Shown here: piece by piece, positions 5,109 through 64,000 of the stretch
Layout: every line of letters begins with the position of its first letter
Position numbering within the stretch: the stretch's first letter is position 1
Assembly: GCF_000003815.2 (NCBI RefSeq)
Contig: NC_049980.1
Coordinates: forward strand, 30,615,195-30,679,194
Length of the DNA: 64,000 bases
Source of the DNA: Branchiostoma floridae
Taxonomy: Eukaryota; Chordata; Leptocardii; Amphioxiformes; Branchiostomatidae
Direction: 5' to 3'
The notes under the pieces: generated by a model
Told to the model about the DNA's origin: nothing
What the model saw: the letters and a program-made list of their open reading frames with translations, nothing else
The model's database searches: none
Translations under genes and position numbers: made by a program

Positions 5109-38793
<33,685 letters not shown>

Positions 38794-43895: not shown

Positions 43896-44022
43896 GTGTG
43901 TGTGTGTGCGTCTGTGTGTGTGGTGTGTGTGTGTGGTGTATATGTGTGTTACTGCGTGTATCTGTGTGTCTGTGAGTGTGTGTCACTGTATTTGTGAGTC
44001 TGTCTGTGTGTGTGTATGTGTC

Positions 44023-44076
<54 letters not shown>

Positions 44077-47029
44077 TCGAGAGACAGGAAGAAAGAAGTA
44101 TGAAGTATTATAGAAATATCAAGAAACCTACGTCCACGACAAGCTTGAATAAAGAACAGCTTTGGTTTCCCCTTCAGACGAGGGCAGTTCTTGTTGTCAA
44201 ACATGCTGAAGATGTCGTCCAGCTGCACGGGCACGTCGTCGCTTCCGAAGATGACGCCTTCCTCTCCATGTGACATCAGCACCACGACACAGCAGTCCTT
44301 CTGTCTGTGTTCTTTTCGCTGAGAAAATGCGAGGACTTCACCTTTTATTTCCTGGAATGTATGAAAGAAAATATTAACTAAAAGAAAAAGGACGTCCAAG
44401 ATACAGAGCGGCGTCGGTGAGGCCTAGATTCTAGAGCGTTGGGCTCAGAACCAACAGGTTCCGGGTTCGATACCCGCCTGGCCCGACGTTTGCCTCTTGG
44501 AAAAGACACCTTCAGGTGGACTCTAACTGCACTTGGGGCACCGGTGCGGCACTGCGGGGTTCGTAGATGACTCATCGAATTTTAAAGATAAAGAACGAAT
44601 TTTCTTCCATTTTGTGTATTTTGTTGTCCTCTAAGTCTTATACGTATTACACAAATTATCTAAACTCTTAAAAATCGCGAAAATAACAAAAGAGTGCCGC
44701 AGTGAACGAGCTCCGCAGTGCCATACCGGTGCCCCAAGTGCAGTGAGAGTCGACCTTTACAGGCTATCCCTAACATGACGCTTACCTGACCAAAAAAGAA
44801 AGTAAAAAACACACGCGCGGTATTAGTTCAAGAGTGTTCCATTATCTGCGCAATCAAAGGCCGTAAGTATAAGTGATAGCATTATAAGGCAGATGGAGGC
44901 ACTGAAATAGTAATGCATGATAATTCTTGGACACGAATTTCCAACCTGAGCTTTCTTGTCTTCCAGGACGTGTGTTTCAAATGACAGCCCCTGAAAGAGA
45001 GATGTGATGTTGCTCAGATCGACGGCAGAACCTCCTCGATAAGGCAGACTTGTGAAGTTCTTATTGTTGAGAATCAAGGCGTAACCGCGTGGCTTGCTGT
45101 CCATTCTGTAAGGGTCTTTCTGTAATCATAAATTAGCGGCAGCGACGTTATTTGACATCGCAACCTGTCACTACTGACAAAATTCCAAAAATGCAAAGAT
45201 GAACTTTGTAACAAATTAATTCTAATTGCTTTGAAACAACATACAACCCAATATCTCAGCAAAAGTATTTTGCTGCAGAGGGGAGGGGAAATCAAAAGAT
45301 ATTGCCGCTTCATTGGCTCCTTTAATTTGTCACTGGTTGCATGATATAGCGACTCCCAAGTACCAAAAAAGAACAATGCATTGTTGTCATCTTCCCCCTA
45401 TCTGCATGCTGATTTTACAATACAATTGTATGTACATGTTAGCTCATTAATGATTTTAGCTAGATGTTATATTAGATGAAGGTTTCTAGACTATAGCTCT
45501 AGACTAGACTGTTACCTCATTCATGATTTTGTCCCAGAATTCCTCATCGCATGTTTTAACCATCACGTTGATTTTGCCGTCGTCCTCGTCAGCTGAAGCT
45601 TCCCAGTTTCCTCCAGCCCCAGGTCCAGCGCTGTCCTGGTGATGTGGTTTCGGGTCATCTATAGTTTCAGTATGATGATAAATAAACTTCATCGTGCTCG
45701 ACAATCGTACATGGCACAATGCATGGCAACGAATAATAAACAACAACAGTAGTACGCGGCTGCATTTAAAGAACAACAAAATGTTATCGATAACACTATT
45801 ATCTAATAGCACATTCATGTGATCTGCTTTAAATTCGCATTTGGAATGGAGAGAGTGCGAAGGTCAAAATTGATTTTGTTCAATTTGTTTTATCATGTTG
45901 CAAGTCATTGTGATTTCGAGTCTGTGGTCATTGTTGTCTACTACAATTTCATCACCCAACTTGCGAGTACTAAATATATATATATATAAAGATAAAAAAA
46001 AAGAAATAGGGCATTTAAATTACCTAATGTCGATCCTCCTCTGGGCCCTTCTTCCTGGACTGCGTTGCTTGGTCCGGCACCTTCTGTAAGCAGGAGTTAA
46101 TACACATGTTTACAATGTATCATATTTATTGTTCTTTCTCCTGCTGTGGTGTCAATATGGTGTTTGATGTTCACGATAAATTGACAAGACATTCTACCCT
46201 TTCATCAAAGCTTTAATACATTTAAAACATTTTTCTTTACAGAGACTATAGCTAGAGACTAAAATAAATTCAGTGATCACATAATTGTTTCCTCCAATTT
46301 TTACGAATAAGAATACAACAGCAACAGATCAAATGTCATAATAAATGGTTTCACTATACATGAAAGACACGCTACTTTTTTTAGTGCTTAGCAACCAACT
46401 GGTTTTAAAAAGGCGTACCTTCCAACGCTTGAGCTGTGTCTCCCTCCTCTATGTTGACGAGGGCCTCCTGCAAAACTTGTAAAGTAGCTTCTCTTCCGTA
46501 CTTGTTTTTCCACTTCCAGAGTACCTCCCTGCACCTGCGATCTTGGTCAGGTACGTCGCTTTTTATGTTTCTTATTTCGTTCCGGTTGAAGCCGAGTTCC
46601 TTTGCCAAACCGTCCCAGTTGTGACTGGCTTCTTTAACGACTGTGTCGAAATGTACGGACACATCAGCTGGAATAAACACAGAAACGTTATCACTGGCAT
46701 TCTCAACCATTGAAGATCGGTCGACATTCTTTTGTGGTGTTGACTTTGTGTGGAGCTGATTGAAGTATAAACTACCCCGTTATCGACATAATGTTTTGGA
46801 GTATTACCATTCATAGCTAGATGTTCTTTATTGTTAGCAATAACTCAATGGCCATGTATGTACAGGTTGTAATACATTATAAATGTTTCTCCATGGAAAA
46901 TCAATTACCTTTGTTGTGACAACCTGTATTCCTTCACATATCTACGTCTCTATAAGTTTACTCACTTTTGGTTGTTCCTCTGGCACTCTGGCCGAACAGC
47001 TGTTGCCTGGATCGTTTTGGTTGTGACAT
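42465..47029 (-). CDS. Death-domain caspase, whole gene
   Basis: Nine exons with matching phases, minus strand: 47029-46966, 46667-46419, 46083-46024, 45658-45516, 45119-44946, 44351-44132, 43656-43483, 43266-43157, 42590-42465; 1,320 nt, 439 residues. Residues 22-104 form a death domain; 105-172 a Gly/Pro/Asp-rich linker; about 173-303 the large catalytic subunit with His258 in SHGEEG and Cys301 in QACRG; 304-350 an inter-subunit linker with DEADG and DESDG, good candidate cleavage sites after Asp; about 351-439 the small subunit with YATQLGYKSFRN and GSWFIQ. All catalytic motifs are intact, so an active cysteine protease cleaving after Asp is expected. Vertebrate initiators carry CARD or DED instead of a death domain; death-domain caspases are known in invertebrates. 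It probably binds a death-domain adaptor and is activated by proximity. Confidence 0.93.
43157..43266 (-). CDS. Caspase exon 8 (small subunit)
   Basis: GYKSFRNIENGSWFIQAITK then VFMEHAKDKSVTEMMPK. SFRN and GSWFIQ build the substrate pocket. Acceptor CACCAG, donor AAA|GTGAGT. Confidence 0.93.
43483..43656 (-). CDS. Caspase exon 7 (inter-subunit linker)
   Basis: KVDKGVPVDEADGPGPDVKV, then an acidic LPEDESDGPEV and TEMLCGYATQL. Phase 1-1. Asp-Gly pairs at DEAD|G and DESD|G fit maturation cleavage. Confidence 0.9.
43856..44074. repeat. (GT)n microsatellite in caspase intron
   Basis: Two long TG runs with interruptions; the frames over it are artefacts. Confidence 0.95.
44132..44351 (-). CDS. 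Caspase exon 6 (catalytic His and Cys)
   Basis: EIKGEVLAFSQRKEHRQKDC, VVLMSHGEEGVIFGSDD and KPKLFFIQACRG. Both catalytic residues lie in this exon. Acceptor TTCCAG, donor C|GTAGGT, phase 1. Confidence 0.95.
44406..44566 (+). repeat. tRNA-derived SINE in caspase intron
   Basis: tRNA-like head: CGTCGG / CCGACG acceptor-like pairing, anticodon-arm-like GTTGGGCTCAGAACCAAC and T-arm CGGGTTCGATACCCG. A tail with CACTTGGGGCACCGGTGCGG follows, whose inverted copy lies at 44695-44752. The tail and loop size argue against a functional tRNA. Confidence 0.65.
44946..45119 (-). CDS. Caspase exon 5 (start of large subunit)
   Basis: KDPYRMDSKPRGYALILNNK, then YRGGSAVDLSNI and LEDKKAQ. PRGYALILNN is the conserved first strand. 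The donor CAG|GTTGGA is weak but the frame joins exon 6 cleanly. Confidence 0.92.
45516..45658 (-). CDS. Caspase exon 4 (linker)
   Basis: DPKPHHQDSAGPGAGGNWEA then an acidic ADEDDGKINVM and EEFWDKIMNE. Phase 1-0. Confidence 0.88.
46024..46083 (-). CDS. Caspase exon 3 (60-nt linker exon)
   Basis: Acceptor TTACAG, donor G|GTAATT, phase 1-1: GAGPSNAVQEEGPRGGSTL. Small, and symmetrical in phase, so it could be skipped in some transcripts. Confidence 0.8.
   Translation of the reverse strand, partial: KVPDQATQSRKKGPEEDRH
46419..46667 (-). CDS. Caspase exon 2 (death domain)
   Basis: DVSVHFDTVVKEASHNWDGL, AKELGFNRNEIRNIK and LWKWKNKYGREATLQVLQEA. The six-helix pattern with W-D-G-L-A-K and LWKWK fits a death domain rather than CARD or DED. 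Confidence 0.92.
46966..47029 (-). CDS. Caspase exon 1
   Basis: ATG at 47029, MSQPKRSRQQLFGQSARGTT then K, donor A|GTGAGT in phase 1, which joins exon 2. Basic N-terminus. Confidence 0.82.
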
Positions 47030-48100: not shown

Positions 48101-48545
48101 CTTTCTCCTCGAGGTCTTCTTCAGCAATCTGCTTCGCCTCCTTTGCAAATTCCTTCCTGAACTTTCTTTCCCCTTGTCAATCTTAGTCAAAAATGGCGGA
48201 CTACTCACCTGTCCCGGTATTGTGGGGAATCCCCTGCACGTTAAGTTTCGGTAAGTCCACGAAGGGGTGAGTCAAGAGTTGTATCGGGGTTCATTTCTGT
48301 GTCTGACTCGATAGAAAACTGTACCTCTTTTCCTAAACATTATATTTTGATTGAATGCTTTCATTTTCAAACATTACTGAATCATAGAGATCATTTTGAA
48401 ACAAACAAAAAATGTTACAGTTGACTCCCCATTTGTACCATGGGACGGTCTTGTTGTCTTCGGGTCATGACCTTACAGGTGAGTCGCGGCCTTTGTTCAA
48501 GGACAAACAGGCTTGGTGTACCATTACCTGCTACCTGTACATTAC
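48101..48545 (-). pseudogene. Inverted, internally deleted DED gene relic
   Basis: On the minus strand 48545-48420 matches the upstream block of the DED genes (compare 52500-52600 and 59810-59910), 48235-48186 matches their 5' UTR (GGGACAGGTGAGTA...CCGCCAT), and 48187-48101 matches the end of the DED exon (FAKEAKQIAEEDLEEK) up to the donor AAAG|GTGGGG. The DED front half is missing; the junction sits at a TGAC shared by both break points. No start codon remains. Confidence 0.72.
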
Positions 48546-49220
48546 TTGCCACCTGTATCAAGTGGGTTCCTGACTGGACTGGGACACGTTGGCGGTGGCG
48601 TTCTGTATGATCTCTCATGCATTTTATGACGGTGGGGTGTTTTTTTCAGTGTAGGTTTTATGCTAGTACCGTTGATAGTTTTCAGGTTTCTTTTTCTTCG
48701 ATGTTTTATTCGGTAAGGGTATCGCGGGCAACACAAGTACACCCGAATTTTGTCCTTATTACAAAGCTTGACAACAAACTGATAACCACATAAAACTATG
48801 AATGTTTACACTCTTGCTTAACATAGTACAGCCTACTTCAGCACTGGTCCCCCAGTGCTGAGGTGGCTTTGACCATTGAATCAGCACTGGAATACTAGTG
48901 CGGAAGGTGAAGCTTTCGTAGACTTGCCATAGTACAACATGTTGTTCACATGATAGAAAAAGTGAACAGATCTCTATTTGATTAAAGAAATGGGAGACGA
49001 AATTTTGCACAACAGCGGTGCATTTATGATTCAACAAGCTTAAGCAGATACTTACGTGAAATTCAAAGAAAGGTGGCGCTGTTCAGAGAAAGTATCAACC
49101 ACAGGGTATCCTGTTCTTGTGTACTCTCTATCTTTGAAAATAGTATTCTTCTACAGACTTACGTGAAATAAAGGAGGTAAAGTTAGATATCAACTAACGG
49201 GTTACCTCGTGGCGTAACAG

Positions 49221-49663
49221 CTGAAGATGTCCCAGAAAACAAGGCAATCATTCAAGGCAACATGGAGAAGGGTAAATTCAACTTCACTCCCCGGAAGTAC
49301 GGCACCCAAGAAGATCTGTCCAAGGACATGCAGCAGGCCCATGTCGTTCTGATGCCGTTTCGTGCAGAGCCTTTCGGACTGGTTGGTCTGGAGGCTATCG
49401 CTGCAGGGGTGCCAGTCCTGATCTCCCACAAGTCTGGTCTTGCCTGGTTCTTAAGGAGCCAGGATCCTGAGTTCGACCGCCTGATCGTGGAGATCGAAGA
49501 TGATGACGAAGAGGCTGCTAAAACACTGGCCAAGCGGATCATCAGGATCCTGAAGGATGGAAACAGGGAGTTCCAAGTGGCAAGAAGGCTCAAGGAGAGG
49601 CTGCTGGCATCCAGGTACAGGGAAGCGTCACACCGGCAGTTTCTGCAGGCATTTGGCCTTTAG
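49221..49663 (+). CDS. Terminal exon of a GT-B (family 1-like) glycosyltransferase, orphan
   Basis: Acceptor GTAACAG, then a phase-1 codon remainder and 147 codons ending at TAG 49661-49663. MPFRAEPFGLVGLEAIAAGV is the E-x7-E nucleotide-sugar motif of GT-B transferases; preceding VVL and following PVLIS fit the Rossmann C-terminal domain. The last part is an amphipathic helix ending AFGL. No N-terminal domain or other exon was found between the caspase and this point, so it may be a retained fragment, a product of rearrangement, or the end of a gene whose other exons are missing from the assembly. Open, unbroken frame and AATAAA signals at 50304 and 50311 suggest it was recently functional. 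Confidence 0.75.
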
Positions 49664-51136: not shown

Positions 51137-51380
51137 TGCTTTATCACTATCAAAGGGGGTATGTATGGGGGTGGTGGTGGAGCAGACCGTTCATGCAATG
51201 GAATTGTTATTTAACTCCACTGCTGTAACCATGTAGTCAGGCCTTTATACTAAGAGCTCACTGCACTGCTTTATGCATTGTGTAACCGTGTCTGCTCAAT
51301 ATTTGTTTGCAACACTATTTCTAATAGAAGTATGTGCCGTGTGTAGTATTAAAGGCACTAGTCGCTGGTTTGTACATGTA

Positions 51381-51969
51381 CGAGGGGCATTCAATAAGTA
51401 ATGTCCCTGACCCATTTCCCATAGCAGGAGATAAATGAAACTTGGCACAGTTATTAGTCTTTCTCTTCATAGGAACCACCCAAAGTTTTGCATTTCTCCC
51501 ATCATTTGACGTAGCTCTGGACACCGTTCTTGTAGGACATCCCAGGTTGGTCCTTCTGCCATTGATAACCAGGTTGGTCATCAATGGCAGAAGAGGGACG
51601 ACCAGGTCTGGGAGCTGTTTCCACAGACTTCCGACCTTGTTTGAATTCAGGATGCCAGCGTCTTACAAGGTCATATGATGGGGCATCATCACCATAAGTT
51701 TCTTTCATTTCATCAAAAGTCCCCTTTGGTGTGCGTCCTTTCAAATACAAAAACCGGATCACTGCGCGACACTCAACTTGCTCCATTTCACACCTGGTCC
51801 ATTTCACACCTGACTCAGTTCAAACACCAGTAAATCAGTAACCACAATTAGTTCAGAGCTGCTTTTTGCAACATAACCCATAGAGATATGACTCATTACA
51901 CATGCAAAATTTCATTTAGATCAAACAACTGGAAGTGGGTCAGGGGCATTACTTATTGAATGCCCCTCG
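51381..51969 (-). mobile_element. Mariner-like element, internally deleted
   Basis: Inverted termini CGAGGGGCATTCAATAAGTA and TACTTATTGAATGCCCCTCG flanked by TA on both sides (51379-51380, 51970-51971), 589 bp. The minus-strand frame 51807-51502 keeps the N-terminal helix-turn-helix of a mariner transposase (VIRFLYLKGRTPKGTFDEMK and KSVETAPRPGRPSSA). The DDD/E catalytic part is deleted, with a small inverted repeat at the junction (51555-51590). Cannot move by itself. Confidence 0.9.
51502..51807 (-). pseudogene. Mariner transposase N-terminal fragment
   Basis: About 70 residues of DNA-binding domain: ECRAVIRFLYLKGRT, YDLVRRWHPEFKQGRKSVE, PRPGRPSSA. Catalytic core missing. Confidence 0.85.
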
Positions 51970-52299
51970 TAAGGCTCAAAGTATGACATGGGTAGACGAA
52001 AGATGTAATATGAAGGTGTATGAACTGAAACTGAAAGAATACAAGAATCGATTAAGTAAATAAATCACTTTACTGAGTTAAAATGTAAAAAACAAATTAT
52101 CAACATCAACAAAGCGTCAATAATGTATGAAAATCATTGATCAACCGCAAGTAGTATTTACTTTTGCTTCAAATGCTTAGTAATACACTTTTGTGTGCTT
52201 TTCCAGAAAAGACCATTAGTTAGTGTAGCTACACAATGGCTTAAAGATAAATGTACTTGAAGTGTAGTCATGATATTGTTTGTACTATTATGTCACTGC

Positions 52300-52876: not shown

Positions 52877-53150
52877 ATGGCGGAAACTTCTCGTTACGAT
52901 CTCTTTTTGCGGATCTCGCAAAACCTCAACGACACAGAATGCAGGGATCTTCGCAACTATGTAGGCAACAATCAACTTTTGCCAACTAGAGGTCTCAAGG
53001 ATATGGACCCGCAAGAAATCTTTGTGAAACTAGAACACGGGGGAAAGTTAAACAAGGGCGACCTCTCACTACTTGTCACCCTTATGACGAAGATAAAAAG
53101 AGCGGACTTTGCAAAGGAGGCGAAGAAGATTGCTGCACAGGAGAGGAAAG
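52877..53150 (+). CDS. DED exon
   Basis: MAETSRYDLFLRISQNLNDT, MDPQEIFVKLEHGGKLNKGD and LVTLMTKIKRADFAKEAKKI. The helix pattern and the charged R-A-D-F near the end (RxDL-like) fit a death effector domain. Donor AAAG|GTAAGA, phase 1. Confidence 0.92.
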
Positions 53151-56100
53151 GTAAGAATAGGTATCAATAAATATTGAACATAATGCTTTAGAATTGGTTT
53201 GTACGTGACATTGTTCGACCAGCATCACCCCCTTTAAGTTCAGCTCCGGACGGCGCACACGGTTCAGTTCCAGAGCTCACGGTCCAGCTAAGGCCCGCAC
53301 TATTCCAGCTTTTAGGAAAATACGGGGACAACATGCAAAATCGTATAGCGCAGTCTTCGGCTAATGCATTTTGTCTGTTCGCCTATCCTCTGACCGAATA
53401 TGACGGCCCAAGACCCACCAGGTTTTGAGATAACCCCCTACCTCCCGTCTTATACGTATAGTACAAGCCTAATATCAAATTGCAACATTGACGTTTATTC
53501 TTTCAATGTTTTATTACAGTATCTAGTGACAGCTTTGAAGAAAAGAGTACAGACGGCGCTGATAGTTCCCAAGAAAGCAGCTCAGATGAGGTTGAGGAGA
53601 GTCTTTTCTATAGCATACTCGATACCCATGAAAAAATATTTGACGAGGAAGTCCTTCAAAATCTTGAAAAGTTTAAAAGCGTGCTATCAGATTTTAGGGA
53701 ACATGTTGATGCTGCCTTGCCCCACCTGAAATGCAAAGCAAAGTTACGAGTTAAGAGGAGAGCCGAACACCTTTTTGGAAAGGTACACAAAACCATATTT
53801 TCGATAAAAGAAGTAAAGAAGAAGTATCCCAAGATAGTGAAGTGCTTTAAGCTCTACAGTGCAATCATGAAAGATCTTAAAAAAGGATGTGTGCTCTGTA
53901 GTCTTGAGTTTGAGGACACCCAGCATTTGAAGTCATTTCTCAGAGGTTACCGGGATGGGAAGTTGTCAGACACTTTGACACAAGAATTGATTACAGAGAA
54001 GATGAAACAAGAAGAAGGACCCGGCCTTTACGTCCACGTAACACTGCTGGTTGCAAGAGACCAAGGGACTGCAAGATCAGGTGAGAAAGCTTAACACATT
54101 TTTCCTCGGCCGATTGAGGTAAAATGTATAACGTTACATAGCTTCGATTAGGGACTTTATTTCGGATAGCATGAAAAGCTGGTTGCTCCGAATTAGAATT
54201 CACACCTATAGCACGTTCAAGAACCCATTACTGTGTGTGTTTTAATGTAACCTTACAGTCTGATCGTCGGGTTGACATCTTGAAAAGGTAATAGTTACCT
54301 GTGATTTGTCAATTGTTCTATAAATATGCTAAATATTAATCGAATGCTAAATGATTAAATCTCAATTAAGGTACAGTCTCTGAATTACATGACCTATACA
54401 GACACTTCATGCTAAGGATAAATACCTTCTTTAGTTACTCACTACTCACCTGGAAGGTCATAACCTTAAGACAACAATAGGACCGCACCAAGCTATAAAC
54501 GGTGGAGGGGGGCAAGTTTGTTATTTTCCTTTTAAACAGTCCTGTAATATCAAGTAATTCTACAGTAATTCTCCAACCAATCACGCACAAATTGATGGCC
54601 CCGTTTGTTTTTACGAGTGATCACTTTCTGGTCCAGCTTTTATGCTCAATTATAATAACGATAGTTTACTGATTGCTGTTCCAATCCCCAAATACATTGC
54701 AGCGCTGAATTGCATATTCAGGCATTAAAACAAGTACACATGTACATTTCTATAACGTTTTCCATCCACCTAATACAGACAGTGAACCGATGGTAACAGA
54801 TCGTTTGCCAGAAGATGAAGAGATGCAGGAGAACATCCATACTTCAGATTCAGCCACCCAAGACCAGGAAGCATCAGGTGATGTGTATGGATTATGAGAT
54901 TGGACAAAAGAAATGATGTCATAATTTGCTAATCTCCAAGCAGATCCTACGGTATCTTAAGATAGTATCAAAAGTTGCCAGCGCTCTAGAGGAGTGAGAC
55001 AGGCCTAGGAGTGTGTTTGGCTACCGGTGGCTGATAACTCGACTGATAACTGGCCGACTGTACTCCTTAGCCAGCTTTGATACTATCTTATGCCACTGGT
55101 AAATCTGCCTGGAGATTAAGAAATTGCATTATCCAATAATATACCAGGGTTACATATTTGATTTGTATGATTTTCTTTGTAATTATTTTTTTCTGAAACT
55201 ACAAGTATACGTATAAAGGTACAAGTATTATGTAATTTGCTCATTGATCATGTCAATGCAGTTTTCATTTGCAACGAAAGAGTTGTGTGAAACGTTTCCA
55301 CAGCCGATACACTGCATAGATAGAAAATCTAAGAAATGAAACGAGGGAATTGTTTTTCAATGGGCAGTTCAGCCGGCAATTTGGGTAGGTCACAATTCAT
55401 CACCGTGTTGGTTTTGTAAAGTTAACCCCATTCTTTATAATATCGTTTACCAACACAGGTGAACATTCATGCTAAGATTGAATTACATTTTAAGGTATCA
55501 CGTTTATCGGCTTGCCACCCGACGACGACATTCCCTTCATCCTGAGTAAAGACATAACTGTGAAGGAAGAAATCGGAAAGGGATCTTTCAGCACTGTGTA
55601 CCTAGCTAACTACAAAGGTAGACAGGTGGCTATTAGGAAGCAGGAATATGAAGACTACCCATGGCGACTCCCGTAAGCGAATTAATTTGTTTGTCGCATG
55701 TTTAGCGAAGTTATTTGTGTGCTTTGTTTTGCGCTGTCATTTAGTTGTAGCGTACGGTTCAACTTTTGTGAGCTGAACAGTATTTGTGTGGGCCAGGCCA
55801 ATTCCACCCTAGCATCTATTTGCAAAACTGTACTTCAGTCAAAACTGTACTTAAGTCACAAGTATACAAAAAATTAGTTGTTGCTACTGGAGACCAGACT
55901 GAGCAAATACATGTATATCAAACTGTTAATGGTGACATTATTGTTTTGTGAAATGATGTACAGTGAGCCAGCGAGAGTCCTGCGGGAGAGTGTGCTGGAA
56001 GAAGCGGCGATCATGCAGCAGGTACAGGCAGAGAACGTGGTTCGGCTGATCGGAGTGTGTTTAGAACCCGGTAGGCATTACACAATGCTACATTTGTTAA

Positions 56101-59052
56101 TTCAATTTTGATAGATGTATGATGTACAGTCAAACCTGCCCGAGCGACCACCTCTTCTCAGCGACCACCTGGCCATTTCGACCGCTTTTTCTCGGTCCCG
56201 ATTTTTTTTCCCATTGACGTAAGCATTAAGCGACCTTTTCTCAACGACCACCTGTCCAATGCGACCGCGACCGGCCAAAAATGGGACCTATGAAGACCGC
56301 GTCATTTTCAATCTTGATGTTTTTATCGATTTTTGATGATAACTAGCGCGATTTTGTGCCGAAATCGGCCAGTTTGCGTCGATGTTATGTTTAGAATAAA
56401 GATGGCGGCGGTCAATGGGTGTGTCAATGTGGCAGTCTACTGTAATATGGGATGAAATTTCGTTGTAAGAAAATCCGAATTTAGTTGTTACAGAAGTTGT
56501 TTTTCAAATCTTTATCATTATAAAGTGAACGAGTGTTGAAACGTATATAGCCTCATACTTTTTAAAGAAAGATCTGTGTAGCTCATACCTTTTTAAGAAA
56601 GATATGTACATGTCGCATTCCTGCGTCTACAGTCGTCTTAATATTTGTACACTAGCGTTTTAGACCTTAGGGGAACTTTGATGCTGTCAGTTACCATACA
56701 AGTCTTTATGAGTCGCTGTGTTCTTGATCGCCGTATCTGAAATAAGTACGGTGTGCCTTTCGAATTCGATGCCTGCGGAGATGCCCGGTACGTCCCGTAG
56801 CGTACTTACCCACGGGTGAATGTACAGTACAGTTACTCTACGAGCAGAGGTTAGGCTCCGGCTGTTTTTTAAACGTTTTTTAGTCGTTTTATCGGGCTTT
56901 CTATTTTGTATTTTATTTTCAAGAAAAATGACAAAATAGAAAGCCCGATAAAAACGACTAACAAAATGTTTTAAAAAAAGCCGGCGCCTAACCTCTGCTC
57001 GGAGAGTACAGTACAGTTGGACAAAAGCACTCACACAGTAGATTGAGTAGACTGTCTTTTTGACCTCCCTGAGTAGAGTTTCTCTGGCGCAGGTAGGAAC
57101 GTCCTGATCCAATTTGCTCCAATTTCTGTTTATTTACTGTATTAAACTTCACCAGGCTTACTGATGATTATTACTTACGTTTTTGCGTGCGTGTGCGTGT
57201 TTTACTTGACATTAAAGACTTCGCTTACTTACTTCTTTGCGTTCGTGTGTTTGCTATTGGCTATCAAACACAACGGAAACCATTTATACTATGCATAGGG
57301 CATGTTTTGAGTCGATACTCTTCTCAGCGACCACCTGTCCAAATCGACCGCTTTTTTCCGGTCCCCCGGGTGATCGTCTTGGGCAGGTTTGACCGTACCT
57401 GCTAAAACTACCTAACATTTATCATCTCGTAAATAGCAGAAAGTTGTGAAGAGCAAACAATTGAGTAAATTAAAGTTATTAGTCTGATTCTGATTGTTCT
57501 CTTGTGGCTGGCATTGTTACATTGGCATTGTGTTTAAAATCACAAATGTCGCAGTGTGTAGCACTCTTACACCTTTCATAACTCTGTATGTCTTACCACA
57601 GCAAACTACACGATTGTGATGGAGTACATGCCGGGAGGGTCCCTTCTCAACCTGCTCCTCAGTGACACGCGCTTGGCATGGAAACAGCTGCTGCAGTTCA
57701 GCACAGATGCCGCCAGAGGTCTCTGTGCTCTGCATCATCCAAGGAGATACTGCCCACAGAGAGTTCACGGCAACTTGACGACCTCAAAATTTCTCATTGA
57801 TGCCAACATGCGAGTTAAGGTATGTTTTGGTTCTACCACACTGCATACATAAGTTCTGACTCTATGTAGTTGCTACCTTCCTATCAAACCCCGTTTTGTC
57901 TTCACTTAAGTGTTGTACAGTATGAAATATGTCATTGACACACAATCTGGTGTACGCACAGCTTACAGGCTTCTGTAACACGAAGACAACGACATCTGTC
58001 ACGAGATACTCCAGGTTCCGCAGAGGAAGAAGCACAATTGCTTTCGTTGCGCCGGAGAACCTCAGAGATATCAACGCAGGGCTGACTGTGGCCGCAGAGG
58101 TGTTCAGGTAGATGATGTCGGTTTAATGGCGTCCTCGATTTTACGCGTTTCTTTTGCCACACCTGCATTCTTCATTCGTATATTGTTAAAGTTATTCGCC
58201 CAAACTTTGCAACGCGATCACCTGCCTTCGTATGAGACTAATTTGAAGTGTTTTTTTTATTATAGTTTCGGCATTGTTCTATGGGAGATAGCAAGCAGGA
58301 AGTTGGCACACGAAGGTATATCATTTTTTTCTGTATATTCCATACAAGTACATGACTTTTGTATGGATATGATTTACATTCTTCCCTTTGTGGTATTATT
58401 CTGGAACACATCAACGACATATCATGTTGATATATGATGTCCATATTATGACACATTTTTATATCTTTAGCTATAAGATACCAGGAAAACGAGATCTACA
58501 AGTTCGTCCTGGAGGAGAGAAGAAAAGAGGACATACCTGCCAACTGTAACAGCTCTCTTGCCGACATTATAGAGAGTTGTAGGCAACTTGAAGAAACAAG
58601 GCGACCGACAATGATTGGTAAAGAGCTTTTTTCTACATCTGTTATTGAAAAAATCACATACATAGCAGTGTTCATGCAACACATGTAAAACTCATTCAAA
58701 CACATATGAACTCATGCAATTTTTTACATGGTAAATAGGAAGTACATGTACTTGAATTGAGAATTGTGTCTTTTCAGAAGGCAAAATTTGTGTTATGAGA
58801 TCAGCAGTAATGTCATGTATATGTGTGTAAATTCTTTTAAATGCTTTCTTTTCGCTATCCAGCTTTTGTATCAAACATGCCAGCTAACTTATTCATTTTA
58901 TAATTTCCTTCTTTCATATTTTATTCACAGATGTGGTAAAGCTGCTGGAAGGCGCCCTGCTGACCTGTCCCGATCACCACGATAGGCTTTCCTCATCACC
59001 ATCAAAGGGGGCATGTATGGGGAGGGAGCAGACCGTTCATGCAATGGGATAG
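52877..59052 (+). CDS. DED + TRADD-N-like + pseudokinase protein, whole gene
   Basis: Ten exons with consistent phases: 52877-53150, 53520-54080, 54779-54877, 55495-55672, 55964-56070, 57602-57819, 57962-58107, 58266-58315, 58471-58617, 58931-59052; 1,902 nt, 633 residues. Residues 1-91 are a death effector domain; about 92-278 an unfamiliar basic helical region followed by a beta-alpha-beta segment resembling the TRADD-N-like domain of invertebrate death/NLR proteins (from memory); 279-311 an acidic spacer; about 330-630 a kinase fold of TKL/RIPK type. The glycine loop GKGSFSTVY (339 on) is intact, but VAIRK has Arg at the usual Lys, HRD is HGN (462-464), the following Asn is Lys, and DFG is GFC (482-484). 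APEN and SFGIVLWE remain. It should bind partners rather than phosphorylate. The ATG at 52877 has a strong AAAATGGCGG context. Confidence 0.9.
53520..54080 (+). CDS. Helical and TRADD-N-like exon
   Basis: 561 nt, phase 1-1. A Ser/Glu-rich start, then KFKSVLSDFREHVDAALPHL, a Lys/Arg-rich helix, then KKGCVLCSLEFEDTQHLKSF, LRGYRDGKLSDTLTQELIT and LYVHVTLLV. The last three parts form a strand-helix-strand unit. Acceptor TTACAG, donor CAG|GTGAGA. Confidence 0.88.
54442..54565 (+). repeat. Partial copy of the DED promoter block inside the gene's own intron
   Basis: CTACTCACCTGGAAGGTCAT through AGCTATAAACG and a TTTAAACAGTCCTGTAATATCA block match 52553-52680 in the same orientation. Confidence 0.8.
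54779..54877 (+). CDS. Acidic spacer exon
   Basis: SEPMVTDRLPEDEEMQENIH then TSDSATQDQEAS, phase 1-1. Symmetrical, so skippable without a frameshift. Confidence 0.82.
54930..55118. mobile_element. Foldback MITE with TAATCTCC termini
   Basis: 189 bp. TAATCTCCAAGCAGATCCTA... and its inverted partner ending ATCTGCCTGGAGATTA, with AAGATAGTATCAAAAG / CTTTGATACTATCTTA subterminally. Flanks ATAATTTGC and AGAAATTGC agree at 7 of 9 positions, so an aged 9-bp duplication. Related termini to the TACTCTCC family. Confidence 0.75.
55495..55672 (+). CDS. Pseudokinase exon, N-lobe with glycine loop
   Basis: ITFIGLPPDDDIPFILSKDI, KEEIGKGSFSTVYLANYKG and RQVAIRKQEYED. Donor CC|GTAAGC, phase 2. The usual VAxK lysine is Arg, with a Lys one position later. 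Confidence 0.9.
55964..56070 (+). CDS. Pseudokinase exon, alpha-C helix
   Basis: EPARVLRESVLEEAAIMQQV then NVVRLIGVCLEP. Phase 2-1, donor G|GTAGGC. Confidence 0.9.
56127..57395. mobile_element. Tigger/pogo-like element with a MITE nested inside
   Basis: Ends CAGTCAAACCTGCCC and GGGCAGGTTTGACCG, flanked by TA (56125-56126, 57396-57397). Subterminal CGACCACCT repeats occur at both ends (compare 56137-56250 and 57325-57360). No transposase frame. CAG... ends with a TA duplication fit the pogo/Tigger group. Related fragments lie near 20040 and 29590. Confidence 0.75.
56834..57008. mobile_element. Foldback MITE, 9-bp target duplication (copy B)
   Basis: Long inverted arms: TACTCTACGAGCAGAGGTTA ... 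TAACCTCTGCTCGGAGAGTA, continuing through GGGCTTTCTATTTTGT / ACAAAATAGAAAGCCC. The 9-bp duplication CAGTACAGT lies at 56825-56833 and 57009-57017. It inserted into the Tigger-like element, so it is younger. Confidence 0.88.
57602..57819 (+). CDS. Pseudokinase exon, hinge and catalytic loop (HGN)
   Basis: NYTIVMEYMPGGSLLNLLLS, LLQFSTDAARGLCALHH and RVHGNLTTSKFLIDANM. VHGNLTTSK replaces HRDLKxxN, losing the catalytic Asp and the metal-binding Asn. Donor AAG|GTATGT, phase 0. Confidence 0.92.
57962..58107 (+). CDS. Pseudokinase exon, activation segment (GFC for DFG)
   Basis: LTGFCNTKTTTSVTRYSRFR then STIAFVAPENLRDIN. The metal-binding Asp of DFG is Gly, and the Gly is Cys; APE is retained. Phase 2 at the end. 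Confidence 0.92.
58266..58315 (+). CDS. Pseudokinase 50-nt exon, alpha-F
   Basis: Short exon completing VF-SFGIVLWEIASRKLAHE. Acceptor TTATAG, donor G|GTATAT. Confidence 0.85.
58471..58617 (+). CDS. Pseudokinase exon, C-lobe
   Basis: IRYQENEIYKFVLEERRKED then SLADIIESCRQLEETRRPTM. ETRRPTM matches the conserved Arg-Pro of helix H-I. Phase 1-1. Confidence 0.9.
58931..59052 (+). CDS. Terminal exon
   Basis: DVVKLLEGALLTC closes the kinase fold; a low-complexity tail DHHDRLSSSPSKG and about 14 more residues end at TAG 59050-59052. The end is copied at 51137. Confidence 0.88.
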
Positions 59053-59221
59053 TATTGGAACTCCACATAGAGCACCCACTGCTGTAACCAGTCAGGCGTT
59101 GACATTTTGTACTAAGAGCTAACAGCATGGCTTTGTGCATTGTGTAACAGTGCACATGTGTGCTCAAGGGTTTGTTTGTAACAACATTTCTGATAGAAGT
59201 ATATGCCCGGCCGTGTGTAGA

Positions 59222-59227
59222 ATTAAA
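59222..59227 (+). terminator. Possible polyadenylation signal (ATTAAA)
   Basis: ATTAAA 170 bp after the stop; ATTAAA is also kept at the matching place in the 3' tail relic (51350). Confidence 0.4.
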
Positions 59228-59599
59228 GACGCTAGTCTTCGGTTTGTACAAGTACGACAGAAGTATGACATGGGTAGACAATAGATGTAATGCGTAGGTG
59301 TATGAACTTAAACACACGATGCAAGAAATGTATAGAATTGGTCAAGGCAATTCATGATTAATCACTTTACTGATGTAACGACTAAATGTGAACGAAGAGT
59401 TAACAGTATGTAGTAAGAAACCACTAAAAAGATTACTTACTTTGTTTCCAGTGATTAGATTTTGGTGTGCTCGTTTAGAAAAGACCACAACTTAGAATAA
59501 TTATACAATAGCATAGATAAATGGTATTCAAAGAAATGCACGTATTTGAAATGTAGTCATGAAATTGTTCATACTGTTAAGTTAATGTCATGTCTCTGA

Positions 59600-60154
59600 G
59601 TTCTTGAGGTCAATATAAAAAGCGTCTTTTTATGGAGGCTTATCATGTTTTCTTAACGATACGGATACATAATGTCCAATGCATACTCAACGTACGTGGT
59701 TAGAACTGTTAAAAGCAAAGACAAATAAGAACATCCCCTTTGATTCAGATTGTAGCTGGTGTGATTCCTTATAATGGGACCATATTCTACACAATAACCC
59801 AGTAACCACAGCCCAACAGGTAACGTTACCCCAGGCCTGTTTAGCCTTGAACAAAGGTCGCGACTCACCTGGAAGGTGATGACCTTAAGACAACAATAGG
59901 ACCGCACCAAGCTATAAACGAGAGGGGGGTCAAATTTGTTATATATATTATCAGGTAATTCTACAGTAAGAAATTCATTTGTGCTTAGGGAAAGGGTGTT
60001 TAGTTTTTGTCTAAATTTAGAGACAGAACTAAACTCAAGTTCAAACACCATTTATCCCCCTCCCAACCCCCCCCCCCTTGACATGACGGAACTTAAGGTG
60101 TAGGGGGATTCTAGCGGGACAGGTGAGTACGCCATATTTGACTGAAGAGTAAGA
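59600..60154 (+). promoter_or_regulatory. Promoter region of the second DED gene copy
   Basis: Copy of 52300-52876 in the same order, including AATATAAAAAG, AACAGGTAACGTTACCCCA and GCGGGACAGGTGAGTACGCC. A run of nine C lies at about 60070. Confidence 0.5.
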
Positions 60155-60428
60155 ATGGCTGAAACCTCTCGTTACGATCTCTTTCTGGAGATCTCACAAA
60201 ACCTTAACAAGACAGAATGCAGGGATCTTCGCACCTTTGTAGGAAGCAATCGACTTTTGCCAGGTAGAGACCTCCAGGATATGGATCCTCAACAGATCTT
60301 TGTGAAACTAGAACACAAGGGGAAGTTGAAGACCGGAGACCTCTCACTAGTTGTCGACCTTATGACAAAGATCGAAAGAGACGACTTTGCAAAGGAGGCG
60401 AAGCGGATTGCTGCTCAAGAGAGGAAAG
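60155..60428 (+). CDS. First (DED) exon of a tandem DED gene copy
   Basis: ATG at 60155. MAETSRYDLFLEISQNLNKT, MDPQQIFVKLEHKGKLKTGD and LMTKIERDDFAKEAKRIAAQ. Same 274-nt length and phase-1 donor (AAAG|GTGGGA) as 52877-53150, with roughly four of five residues identical. The coding frame is intact. No second exon is seen before the window ends; a retroelement occupies the expected position, so later exons are either beyond 64000 or lost. Confidence 0.85.
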
Positions 60429-60649
60429 GTGGGAATAGATGCCATCTTTAATGTGTAATCGTACTCGTTCGTAAGTTGTGTTGCCACAAGGTAGACCTAA
60501 ACTAGTCTTATTGTCAACATAACGGTTGAGTAAGCATGGAAAGGATTCGATAAAAGACGAAACGTGCATTTTACGTGTGTATCATGTACATATGTTATGT
60601 ACATGCAGTATGCTACTGTACGTAACGGTTGGTGTCGCTAGACCAACAT

Positions 60650-61655: not shown

Positions 61656-62546
61656 CTAAGGTCTAATATAAGACTTGAACGCATCTGAGGACCACCTCCC
61701 TAGTGCTCGCAACTGTGTGTCGGGGACACCATTAAGTGATGCATGTGTAGCAGCCCCGATACGGAAAGAGTGAACTGTGAATGCACGTGGATCAAGGTTT
61801 AGATAAGTGACGCATTTTCTCAGTGTGTTTGAAAACAGGTCACTGGAAACAGGGCGGCCGTCCCTACGCAGGAAGAGGTAACCTACGCACTTCCCCCGCA
61901 GGGCTAAGTATGTGTTCATGTTGGCTACTGGGCAGTACAAACTGCTGGCGTGGGGAGATACGGCGATGGTAGCGGGGCGACTTGGGTTGCCGTGCTTATA
62001 CGTGCGGAAGGTGACCAATAAAGATGGTGTGTGAGGGGTTGTGTACTGTATGTTAACGTCGGCTAGTTGTAGGGTGTGGTTTGACGAACCCGTGACCGTT
62101 ACTTCCCCGATGCGTGCCAAGGTGAAATAGCTGAAGAGAAACAGGGCTTTGAAAAGCTGCTGGTCATATGCGTGAGTGATTACTGAAGGTAAGGAGTCAA
62201 GTAGGGACTTGAGGATGGAAGGGCTAATCGGTCTCCTCCCGTCTGGGGTTTGGGACTTGCGGGCTGCATGCATGAGTTTTTGTATAAGGAATGATTGCGT
62301 GGGGTCAGGGAAGTTCAGCAACTTATGGACAAAGGCGATAGCAGAGAGTTTGGAAGAGATGGATGAGGCAACGAAGCCTTTATTGTGCATGTGCGCTATG
62401 AATTGGGAGACGAGAGATGTGGCAACCGGGGGAACGGCCAGGTCCTTTCTGTAGATATCTAAGGTGAATTGGCGAAATGTCTGCCATGCCTGGCGGTAAG
62501 CGCGAAGAGTGGAAGGAGCAAGGGAGGACGTTAAGAGGTCTGTCAC
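61656..62546 (-). CDS. Tyrosine recombinase of a YR retrotransposon
   Basis: About 296 residues, minus strand. N-terminal SAM-like half (SSLAPSTLRAYRQAWQTFRQ) and catalytic half with Arg in TLARIGEV, HSFRIGAATH (His-x-x-Arg), LGRWSSDAF and Tyr in KSYIRP just before the stop. The nucleophile set R-H-R-Y is complete. The recombinase inserts the circular cDNA of DIRS/Ngaro-type elements. The frame is open upstream of 62546 and overlaps the RT frame, the first possible start being GTG, so it may be made by frameshifting or re-initiation. Confidence 0.9.
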   Translation of the reverse strand: MTDLLTSSLAPSTLRAYRQAWQTFRQFTLDIYRKDLAVPPVATSLVSQFIAHMHNKGFVASSISSKLSAIAFVHKLLNFPDPTQSFLIQKLMHAARKSQTPDGRRPISPSILKSLLDSLPSVITHAYDQQLFKALFLFSYFTLARIGEVTVTGSSNHTLQLADVNIQYTTPHTPSLLVTFRTYKHGNPSRPATIAVSPHASSLYCPVANMNTYLALRGKCVGYLFLRRDGRPVSSDLFSNTLRKCVTYLNLDPRAFTVHSFRIGAATHASLNGVPDTQLRALGRWSSDAFKSYIRP

Positions 62547-64000
62547 TGTTCTATTAAGGCCGACGGCTGCAGGTGTGACGGGATCGGCGATGGGTGCGGA
62601 TCCATATTTGGGTAGGTCTGACGGAAGCGGGCAACCTGCAAGCGAGACAAGGAGTCAGCCATATCATTTTGAGAGCCGGGCACGTGAGTCGCCCGACAGA
62701 GAATGTTATGTCTTAAAGACATCAGCACAAAATGGCGCACTAGGGGCATGATTAAGGGGTTTTTTGAGGTTTGACGGTTGATTATATGGACCAGGGCTGC
62801 GTTATCAGTGTGTAAGAGAATACTTCTGTTGGACCATTGTTGACCCCAGAGATGTAGGGCAACTACGATAGGGTAGAATTCTAGAATGGTGATGTTACGC
62901 GAGCGTAAGGAGGGAGGCCATGCTCCGTAGAACCATGCTGTCCCACAGACCCCACCGTAGCCAAGAGACGCAGCAGCGTCGGTGAAGAGATGTAAAGTCG
63001 AATTTGATGCGAAAGCCTCATCTAAGAAAAAGGACCGACCGTTGAAATCGGTCAAGAAGTTGAGCCACATTTGGAGATCTTGGTGGACTTGTAAGGTAAG
63101 AGGAATGAGACTGTCGTTTTGATGTCGTGATTTTGTGAGGTCAATAAGGCGGCGCAAGAAGGCGCGCCCCGGACGTACAACTTGGCAGACATGGTTTAAG
63201 AGACCAATGAGGGATTGAATTTGTTTCAGGCTTGCACTGCGGCGTGTCAAAAAGGAATGTACCTGTTCGCGGCATTTTTGTAATTTGTCTAAGGGGAGTC
63301 TGGCCTCCATCGCTATCGTGTCTAGTTCTATTCCCAAAAATGACATGACGGTGTCAGGTGGGAATGTTTTCTCCTCTGAAAGGGGAACCCCCACATCAAG
63401 GCACATGACCTTGAAAGCTATAAGATCATGGTGACACTTTTGGAAGGTTTTGTTGGCGAAAAGGAAATCGTCAAGAATATGTGTGGGAAACTGGATATTG
63501 AGTTTGTTACGGGCAATCCATTCTAAGGTTGAACTAAAGGATTCAAAGATAGCGCATGACGTGGAACATCCCATTGGCAAACACCTGTCGAAGTAGAAGT
63601 TTCCGTTCCAGTAAAAGCCAAGAAGATGATGGTCGTTGGGATGGACAGGGATTAGACGGAAAGCTGACTCGATATCGGTTTTGGCCAGGAAACAGCCAGG
63701 GCCGAGGGTTTTTATGTGCTGAATGGCGTTGTCAATAGTAGCATACGAAACAGAGGACAATTCTGTGGGAATGCCGTCGTTGATTGAAGACCCGGGGGGG
63801 TAGGAGAGGTCATGAATGAGTCTAAATTTTCCAGGAGTCTTTTTGGGAACTGCGTATAAAGGGGAAAGACACAGGTTTTCTAGTGGTGGGAATGAAAATG
63901 GTCCAGCAACCCGCGTAGACTCAAGTTCTTGTTGTAATTTTTCCGAAATTGGGGCAAAATGTGATGAATTGGCTGGGGAGGGAATGTTAAGGGTCGGTTT
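62543..64000 (-). CDS. Reverse transcriptase-RNase H of an Ngaro-like retrotransposon, partial
   Basis: 485 codons open from the right edge of the window to TGA at 62543-62545. RT motifs: FRLIHDLSYPPGSS, AKTDIESAFRLIPVH (first catalytic Asp), LPMGCSTSCAIFESF and THILDDFLFA (catalytic Asp pair). RNase H motifs: LHLFTDAAASLGYGG, ITILEFYPIVVAL, LLHTDNAALVH and NDMADSLSR. No methyltransferase follows, and the order RT-RH then YR fits Ngaro rather than DIRS1. The gag region lies beyond the window. Confidence 0.9.
   Translation of the reverse strand, partial: KPTLNIPSPANSSHFAPISEKLQQELESTRVAGPFSFPPLENLCLSPLYAVPKKTPGKFRLIHDLSYPPGSSINDGIPTELSSVSYATIDNAIQHIKTLGPGCFLAKTDIESAFRLIPVHPNDHHLLGFYWNGNFYFDRCLPMGCSTSCAIFESFSSTLEWIARNKLNIQFPTHILDDFLFANKTFQKCHHDLIAFKVMCLDVGVPLSEEKTFPPDTVMSFLGIELDTIAMEARLPLDKLQKCREQVHSFLTRRSASLKQIQSLIGLLNHVCQVVRPGRAFLRRLIDLTKSRHQNDSLIPLTLQVHQDLQMWLNFLTDFNGRSFFLDEAFASNSTLHLFTDAAASLGYGGVCGTAWFYGAWPPSLRSRNITILEFYPIVVALHLWGQQWSNRSILLHTDNAALVHIINRQTSKNPLIMPLVRHFVLMSLRHNILCRATHVPGSQNDMADSLSRLQVARFRQTYPNMDPHPSPIPSHLQPSALIEQ

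Follow-up and report, generated by a model that had tools for sequence, protein, structure and literature searches.

A gene whose predicted product combines a death effector domain (DED), a TRADD-N domain and an MLKL-type pseudokinase lies in the window, a stretch of 64,000 nucleotides of the Branchiostoma floridae genome (contig C2:30615195-30679194), where it was rebuilt from sequence at positions 52877-59052 of the forward strand. The model of this candidate gene has ten exons and nine introns, all bounded by GT-AG, and its frame is open across 1,899 coding nt plus stop, from the ATG at 52877 to the TAG ending at 59052, giving a protein of 633 amino acids (aa). A preliminary description of the locus had a single open frame of 633 aa running through exons for DED, TRADD-N and pseudokinase, which was borne out by the rebuilt model, Pfam and the predicted DED fold; the ten junctions it mentioned were counted as nine. 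Genome searches covered 513,431,437 bases in 431 contigs. The exons of the candidate gene are as follows.

52877..53150, forward strand: exon 1, start codon and DED, aa 1-91 (Pfam, predicted structure)
53520..54080, forward strand: exon 2, acidic linker, low-confidence predicted-helical stretch and TRADD-like_N, aa 92-278; symmetric 1-1 phase
54779..54877, forward strand: exon 3, linker of low complexity; symmetric 1-1 phase
55495..55672, forward strand: exon 4, kinase N-lobe with GKGSFSTVY and VAIR
55964..56070, forward strand: exon 5, alpha-C LEEAAIM, Glu retained
57602..57819, forward strand: exon 6, pseudo-catalytic loop VHGNLTTSKFL
57962..58107, forward strand: exon 7, GFC; activation-loop KTTTS, aligned with human MLKL Thr357/Ser358; APE
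58266..58315, forward strand: exon 8, alpha-F SFGIVLWEIA
58471..58617, forward strand: exon 9, C-lobe IIESCRQ, with Arg at the position that is Trp in most tyrosine kinase-like (TKL) kinases compared
58931..59052, forward strand: exon 10, C-terminus and stop codon

From this model we infer a single transcript joining all ten exons. Each of exons 1-3 ends in phase 1, which is also the phase in which the kinase begins, an arrangement that allows exon shuffling. A sequence scan found no run of N bases in window 23534-64000, so that no assembly gap splits the candidate gene, and an assembly artefact was rejected on the same ground. An imperfect palindrome (85% over 197 columns, window 56824-57017) lies within intron 5.

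Motifs and ancestry of the pseudokinase

The kinase domain was recognized by Pfam as PK_Tyr_Ser-Thr (aa 332-598, 149.3 bits). The substitutions listed in the preliminary description were all seen in the alignment, the VAxK Lys being replaced by Arg (VAIR), HRD by HGN, the catalytic-loop Asn by Lys and DFG by GFC, and the kinase is predicted from its sequence to be catalytically dead. The same description had the glycine loop, APE and C-lobe motifs intact; APE is indeed present, but the third Gly of the glycine loop is replaced by Ser (GKGSFS), and the subdomain IX Asp by Glu in an alignment of 16 kinases.

When the candidate kinase was used in a sequence search of solved structures (1451 matches, of which the best 60 were inspected), the best 11 of the 1451 were MLKL chains at 136.7-109.3 bits, plant CTR1 came next at 108.9 bits, and RIPK1 chains scored 77.6 bits or less among the matches listed. 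The alignment and tree comprised 7 MLKL-type kinases, four of them from amphioxus, and 9 other TKL kinases; the tree omits the MLKL_N locus L032/L035, where an N run cuts the kinase exons, as well as loci L031 and L033. Sequences of RIPK1/2/3 were confirmed by matching, and those of TAK1, ZAK, BRAF and IRAK4 are provisional. In the RIPK1 row, Met stands where the beta-3 Lys is expected, which was taken for an alignment error, and the sequence used for rat MLKL (6vbz) is partial and lacks the glycine loop. By maximum likelihood, the 7 MLKL-type kinases were split from RIPK1/2/3, CTR1, TAK1, ZAK, BRAF and IRAK4 with support of 100/100, the candidate clustering with vertebrate MLKL and with an MLKL of the same genome that bears the four-helix bundle (4HB). 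Approximately unbiased (AU) tests rejected the joining of the three closest amphioxus sequences to the RIPKs (p 0.0013) or to CTR1 (p 2e-6). As a control for convergence among dead kinases, 43 columns around the catalytic and diagnostic sites were removed, and the same answer was obtained (MLKL split 96/94; AU p 0.017 for the RIPKs and 0.0036 for CTR1).

Further agreement was seen in three marks, chosen by eye after the alignment had been inspected, that all 7 MLKL-type rows share and none of the 9 others has: Glu for Asp in subdomain IX, Arg or Lys for Trp or Leu after the subdomain XI Cys, and an activation-loop run K-T-x-[TS]-S. The last two residues of this run align with human MLKL Thr357/Ser358, which are RIPK3 phosphorylation sites (PMC11476962). 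Judged by its sequence, the candidate kinase is MLKL-type and not RIPK-like; a RIPK-like kinase was rejected on the score ranking, the marks and the AU tests, and the RIPK-like scaffolding envisaged in the preliminary description is not supported. The exchange of the beta-3 Lys for Arg is confined to the candidate, Lys standing in the other 6 of the 7 MLKL-type rows. In human, rat and horse MLKL the partner of this Lys is the alpha-C Glu, and in mouse an activation-loop Gln (PMC7305131). A further loss of nucleotide binding is therefore predicted for the candidate. The 4HB domain (MLKL_N, PF22215) had no match at E<=1 in the 633-aa protein by Pfam, and a hidden 4HB was accordingly rejected; as this domain was tested for and not found, the candidate is not classed as an MLKL but merely as an MLKL-type pseudokinase protein.

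The closest copy of the kinase in the genome, gene B on contig C6, is a complete free-standing pseudokinase of 8 exons and 301 aa, identical to the candidate kinase at 220 of 270 aligned residues, and its five internal exons have the lengths of candidate exons 5-9 (107, 218, 146, 50 and 147). Its motifs read VAVKK, HGN and DFC, the beta-3 Lys and DFG Asp thus being kept, unlike in the candidate. A third relative, gene A, known from a partial model, has VAVK, HGH and DFC. Four MLKL_N matches (E<=1) were found in the genome, one on C18 and three on C6, the latter about 0.1-0.2 Mb from gene B. Locus L034 combines MLKL_N (PF22215, 66.8 bits, cut-off 27) with a kinase part reading VAIKK, HMN and DFG, for which the first 11 solved-structure matches listed are MLKL, and as modelled its kinase exons equal those of the candidate in length or differ by multiples of three. 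Its 4HB-MLKL gene (L034 515-5082), with VAIK and DFG kept and HMN for HRD, is less degraded in its catalytic motifs than the three vertebrate MLKLs compared. In the preliminary description, relatives with intact HRD and DFG were taken as a sign of a local pseudogene. On this point the outcome was mixed: among the four amphioxus MLKL-type kinases aligned, the HRD Asp is absent from all four and the DFG Asp retained in three, and the beta-3 Lys is lost in the candidate only. The sequence comparisons suggest, as the best explanation, that the candidate pseudokinase arose through duplication of an MLKL-type kinase, with its closest copy on C6.

The DED-TRADD-N head and its relatives

The N-terminal DED (aa 9-84) was borderline by Pfam, with 32.7 bits in the whole protein, just under the cut-off of 35.9, and 36.3 bits in the frame-by-frame genome search; a tandem copy of its exon (60155..60427) scored 39.1 bits. 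A structure model of the DED exon, built on an alignment of the two window copies, had a predicted local distance difference test (pLDDT) value of 88, and its best matches were the DEDs of vFLIP (MC159), caspase-8/cFLIP and FADD (probability 1.00, template modelling score 0.77 by query length). Of 115 structure matches at E<=10, 49 of the best 50 were DED proteins, the remaining row being a pyrin domain; the best E was 0.03, and none of the 115 reached E<=0.001. On this convincing predicted fold, the N-terminal DED was taken as real. TRADD-like_N (PF20694, aa 187-253) scored 40.6 bits in the whole protein against a cut-off of 23.7, and 44.4 bits in the genome search. Death domain, CARD and ankyrin repeats were not among the five families matched at E<=1 when the 633-aa protein was searched with Pfam.

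Copies of both head exons were found elsewhere in the genome. The TRADD-N exon is closest to exons on C13 (69%, 58% and 58%) and then C1 (54%), with further copies on C3, C9 and C215; the DED exon is closest to its tandem copy (80%), followed by copies on C9 (59%) and C10 (58%). On C9 and C215 a DED exon is followed by a TRADD-N exon, the order seen in the candidate, and no kinase match was present in the two stretches (10 and 9.9 kb), which were inspected by eye and with tblastn only. The C215 exons run on into a long frame which we take to be leucine-rich repeats (LRRs). In the closest C13 relative a GT4 frame precedes the TRADD-N exon, and the sequence after that exon is largely N in the stretch examined. 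These comparisons point to the DED-TRADD-N head as a module reused in amphioxus with different C-terminal partners, which would explain them best. At C17 18.29-18.90 Mb, DED and TRADD-like_N exon matches form a cluster, with several dozen of each, which fits the published DED-TRADD-N expansion.

That expansion was described by Kaur et al. 2021 as lineage-specific, with DED-TRADD-N joined to WD40 propellers in Branchiostoma, alongside GT4-TRADD-N-LRR proteins in cephalochordates among others, and an immune function was proposed for the DED-TRADD-N proteins, whose heads are constant and whose C-termini vary (PMC8195603). The candidate resembles the Branchiostoma members of the NCOA6 and DEDD2 clades in its constant head, DED then TRADD-N, followed by a variable C-terminus; it differs in its partner, MLKL being absent from those named for the published proteins, which are WD40 propellers and, in the DEDD2 clade, GT4 with LRRs and others (PMC8195603). 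In the sponge Amphimedon, death-fold/TRADD-N units are followed by S/T/Y kinases (PMC8195603), which gives the candidate's order of death-like domain(s), TRADD-N and kinase; these proteins are from a sponge, not a chordate, and the text names an S/T/Y kinase without its type. As the order of death fold, TRADD-N and kinase has been published for Amphimedon, it is not new in itself, and the words MLKL and pseudokinase are absent from the text of PMC8195603, source tables aside. The new architecture announced in the preliminary description is thus to be narrowed: the DED-TRADD-N half was already known, and it is the MLKL-type pseudokinase as C-terminal partner that looks new.

No description of a DED-TRADD-N/MLKL-type pseudokinase fusion was found in the literature searched, a coverage outside which most subscription papers fall. 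A survey of RIPKs lists 19 amphioxus homologues, and the term DED had no match in its text (PMC9573974). The 2008 paper on amphioxus domain shuffling reports DED-NACHT and others, DED-kinase not being mentioned in the available passages of that source (PMC2575513), and no such protein occurs in the available passages of PMC2246300 and PMC9444067.

Proposed role and competing explanations

Taken together, the locus is read as an exon-shuffled fusion of a DED-TRADD-N head with an MLKL-family pseudokinase, acting as an adaptor or decoy at a DED platform, a reading to which a probability of roughly 0.45 is given. A DED-TRADD-N head of three exons, each ending in phase 1, would have been joined to a duplicated MLKL-family pseudokinase via phase-1 introns. 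The DED may join or nucleate a DED assembly of the FADD/caspase-8 type, with TRADD-N supplying a second binding surface, and the pseudokinase, from which phosphorylation is not expected, would serve as a docking or decoy module for the amphioxus 4HB-MLKL or its activating kinase. Binding would occur through MLKL-type pseudokinase contacts, with the retained Thr-Ser pair of the activation loop as a possible phospho-switch. The protein would then bring MLKL-type regulation to the DED platform or keep it away, and would not itself be an executioner. Its most likely role would be that of a DED-assembling adaptor or decoy which binds MLKL or its activating kinase.

Among known systems, the candidate is like MLKL in having a pseudokinase of the same group that has lost the HRD Asp, bears Glu in subdomain IX, carries the [TS]S pair in its activation loop and replaces by Arg/Lys the Trp that follows the subdomain XI Cys; it is unlike MLKL in carrying a DED and TRADD-N with no 4HB/MLKL_N detected, and in having Arg for the beta-3 Lys. 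RIPK1 and RIPK2, in which a kinase is combined with a death domain or CARD (PMC11507063), likewise pair a TKL-group kinase fold with a death-fold domain, whereas in the candidate the death fold is N-terminal, so that the order is reversed, it is a DED rather than a death domain or CARD, and the kinase falls outside the RIPK group. DEDD2 and c-FLIP are, similarly, non-catalytic regulators with a DED, which in DEDD2 is likewise followed by TRADD-N, but neither has a kinase domain, and c-FLIP bears an inactive caspase domain (PMC8195603).

Several observations weigh against the fusion as described. In the whole-protein Pfam search the DED scored 32.7 bits, below its cut-off, and the TRADD-N exon modelled without an alignment reached a pLDDT of 44, too poor for use. 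For the pair of DED exons, the ratio of non-synonymous to synonymous substitution rates (dN/dS) was 0.30 by NG86 but 0.52 by YN00. Support for the MLKL split fell on removal of the catalytic and diagnostic columns (from 100/100 to 96/94), and the placement of the three amphioxus copies inside the MLKL group was supported at just 62.6/70. In the solved-structure search with gene B, plant CTR1 ranked second, over 10 of 11 MLKL chains; gene B was nevertheless placed with MLKL in the tree. The remaining points concern the join to the kinase: the exon 3 donor, GTGATG, is weak, and with any GT accepted as donor, 8 phase-1 combinations of ATG and donor fit in intron 3, one of which (55360-55384, with the fair donor GTAGGT) resembles gene B's short first exon in kind.

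These last points bear on whether the locus might instead hold two adjacent genes, one encoding DED-TRADD-N (exons 1-3, with a stop soon after exon 3) and the other a kinase only (exons 4-10, with its own short first exon in intron 3). Such an arrangement would parallel the C6 paralogue, whose complete kinase of 301 aa has a first coding exon of 19 nt to itself, and, besides the weak exon 3 donor and the eight ATG-to-GT stretches, it is favoured by the stop that appears within a few codons when exon 3 is extended past its donor. It is nonetheless considered rather unlikely. Clear similarity to gene B starts in exon 4, and the first exon of gene B has no match in the candidate's intron 3; exons 3 and 4 are just 617 bp apart with matching phases; and the C13 relative (L038) has, after its TRADD-N exon, a likely counterpart of exon 3 with GT following (E 0.73, judged by position and content). 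A stricter GTRAG donor filter leaves none of the intron 3 combinations, but it passes just 3 of the candidate's own 9 donors. That the gene might be a decaying duplicate without function is the least probable of the explanations weighed here, although duplication relics flank it and conserved residues are lost. Its frame is open over ten exons, and dN/dS was low both for the kinase against gene B (0.107/0.447 = 0.24 by NG86; 0.114/0.389 = 0.29 by YN00) and for the TRADD-N exon against four paralogues (0.22-0.38 by NG86; 0.23 against its closest relative), these values being averages over both branches from which constraint on the candidate copy alone is not separable. A local pseudogene, raised in the preliminary description as a refutation, is disfavoured by the dN/dS values of the kinase and of the TRADD-N exon, which lie far under 1, and the candidate is therefore probably not one.

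Granting an intact fusion, its effect might be to restrain death in the manner of c-FLIP, the protein capping DED assemblies and titrating an MLKL-activating kinase. The loss of the beta-3 Lys and DFG Asp beyond the losses of the paralogue, the undetected 4HB and the retained phospho-acceptor pair would all suit such an inhibitor, but the direction of effect is not readable from sequence, and as a specific claim this is held to be unlikely. Improbable, if a shade less so than decay, is an integrated decoy, in which the pseudokinase would bait microbial proteins that target MLKL/RIPK signalling and the DED-TRADD-N head would fire on contact. It draws on the immune role proposed for DED-TRADD-N proteins, in which a constant head is paired with a variable C-terminus (PMC8195603), whereas an arms-race bait would be expected to diversify and the kinase has a low dN/dS against its paralogue, albeit as an average and not a site test.

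A more far-reaching version of the fusion reading takes account of what is reported for MLKL in amphioxus and other animals. A metazoan survey reports MLKL in lancelets and the killing of human cells by N-terminal domains taken from the MLKL of B. floridae and of B. lanceolatum (PMC11476962); B. lanceolatum MLKL has also been reported without MLKL_N (PMC11507063). RIPK3 is reported to be absent from cephalochordates and MLKL to have multiplied in amphioxus, and sea cucumber MLKL is reportedly activated via caspase cleavage, not phosphorylation (PMC11932488). In a chordate lineage from which RIPK3 is reported missing, a DED-TRADD-N platform with its own MLKL-type pseudokinase might let a DED assembly recruit MLKL and gate it through pairing of pseudokinases, so that the RHIM-RIPK3 step used by vertebrates would be bypassed; this is doubtful, though a little less so than the inhibitor just described. 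The fusion suggests that the machineries of apoptosis and necroptosis are linked directly at the molecular level, and a DED head joined to an MLKL-type pseudokinase would be a concrete candidate link for MLKL control in animals without RIPK3. It would also show the two halves of MLKL, pseudokinase and killer, on separate evolutionary paths in a genome that keeps a 4HB-MLKL as well.

Tandem array and neighbourhood

Two further features flank the candidate gene.

60155..60427, forward strand: second DED exon, a tandem duplicate with 80% aa identity, its upstream DNA duplicated too
51143..51383, forward strand: remnant of another tandem copy, comprising sequence from the last exon and 3' flank, 73% over 273 columns to 58995-59257

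A second copy of the upstream DNA and DED exon occupies 59542-60438 (79% over 935 columns); this repeat and the relic at 51143-51383 are regarded as remnants of a tandem array. In the genome searches no TRADD-N or kinase exon was found after the second DED exon, and all TRADD-N and kinase matches on contig C2 came from the candidate gene. A second full copy downstream was rejected, the DED exon alone having been found, with the limit that N bases past the window end could hide part of one: an N run (L023 5196-9462) begins exactly at that end, and another occupies window 23164-23533.

A C-terminal piece of a GT4-conflict glycosyltransferase (PF20706, 113.6 bits) lies at window 49187-49660 on the forward strand, 3.2 kb upstream of the candidate, and shows 47% to the GT4 frame ahead of the TRADD-N exon in the C13 relative. 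It was rejected as an exon of the candidate, having its own stop and, by eye, no GT donor at the C13-like splice place. At window 48122-48530 on the reverse strand lies a degraded, inverted duplicate covering the end of the DED exon and its upstream DNA (blastn 67-94% in pieces). The 3' relic of the array has been invaded by a Mariner-like element (window 51380-51972), whose inverted ends were recognized by eye and whose minus strand carries a Mos1-type HTH_48 frame (35.5 bits). Upstream, at window 43986-46779 on the reverse strand, Death (58.1 bits) and Peptidase_C14 (90.4 and 32.2 bits) matches in separate frames probably belong to one death-domain caspase gene, and downstream a tyrosine-recombinase frame (window 61659-62654, reverse strand; Phage_integrase, 27.3 bits, cut-off 27.1) is probably part of a eukaryotic mobile element.

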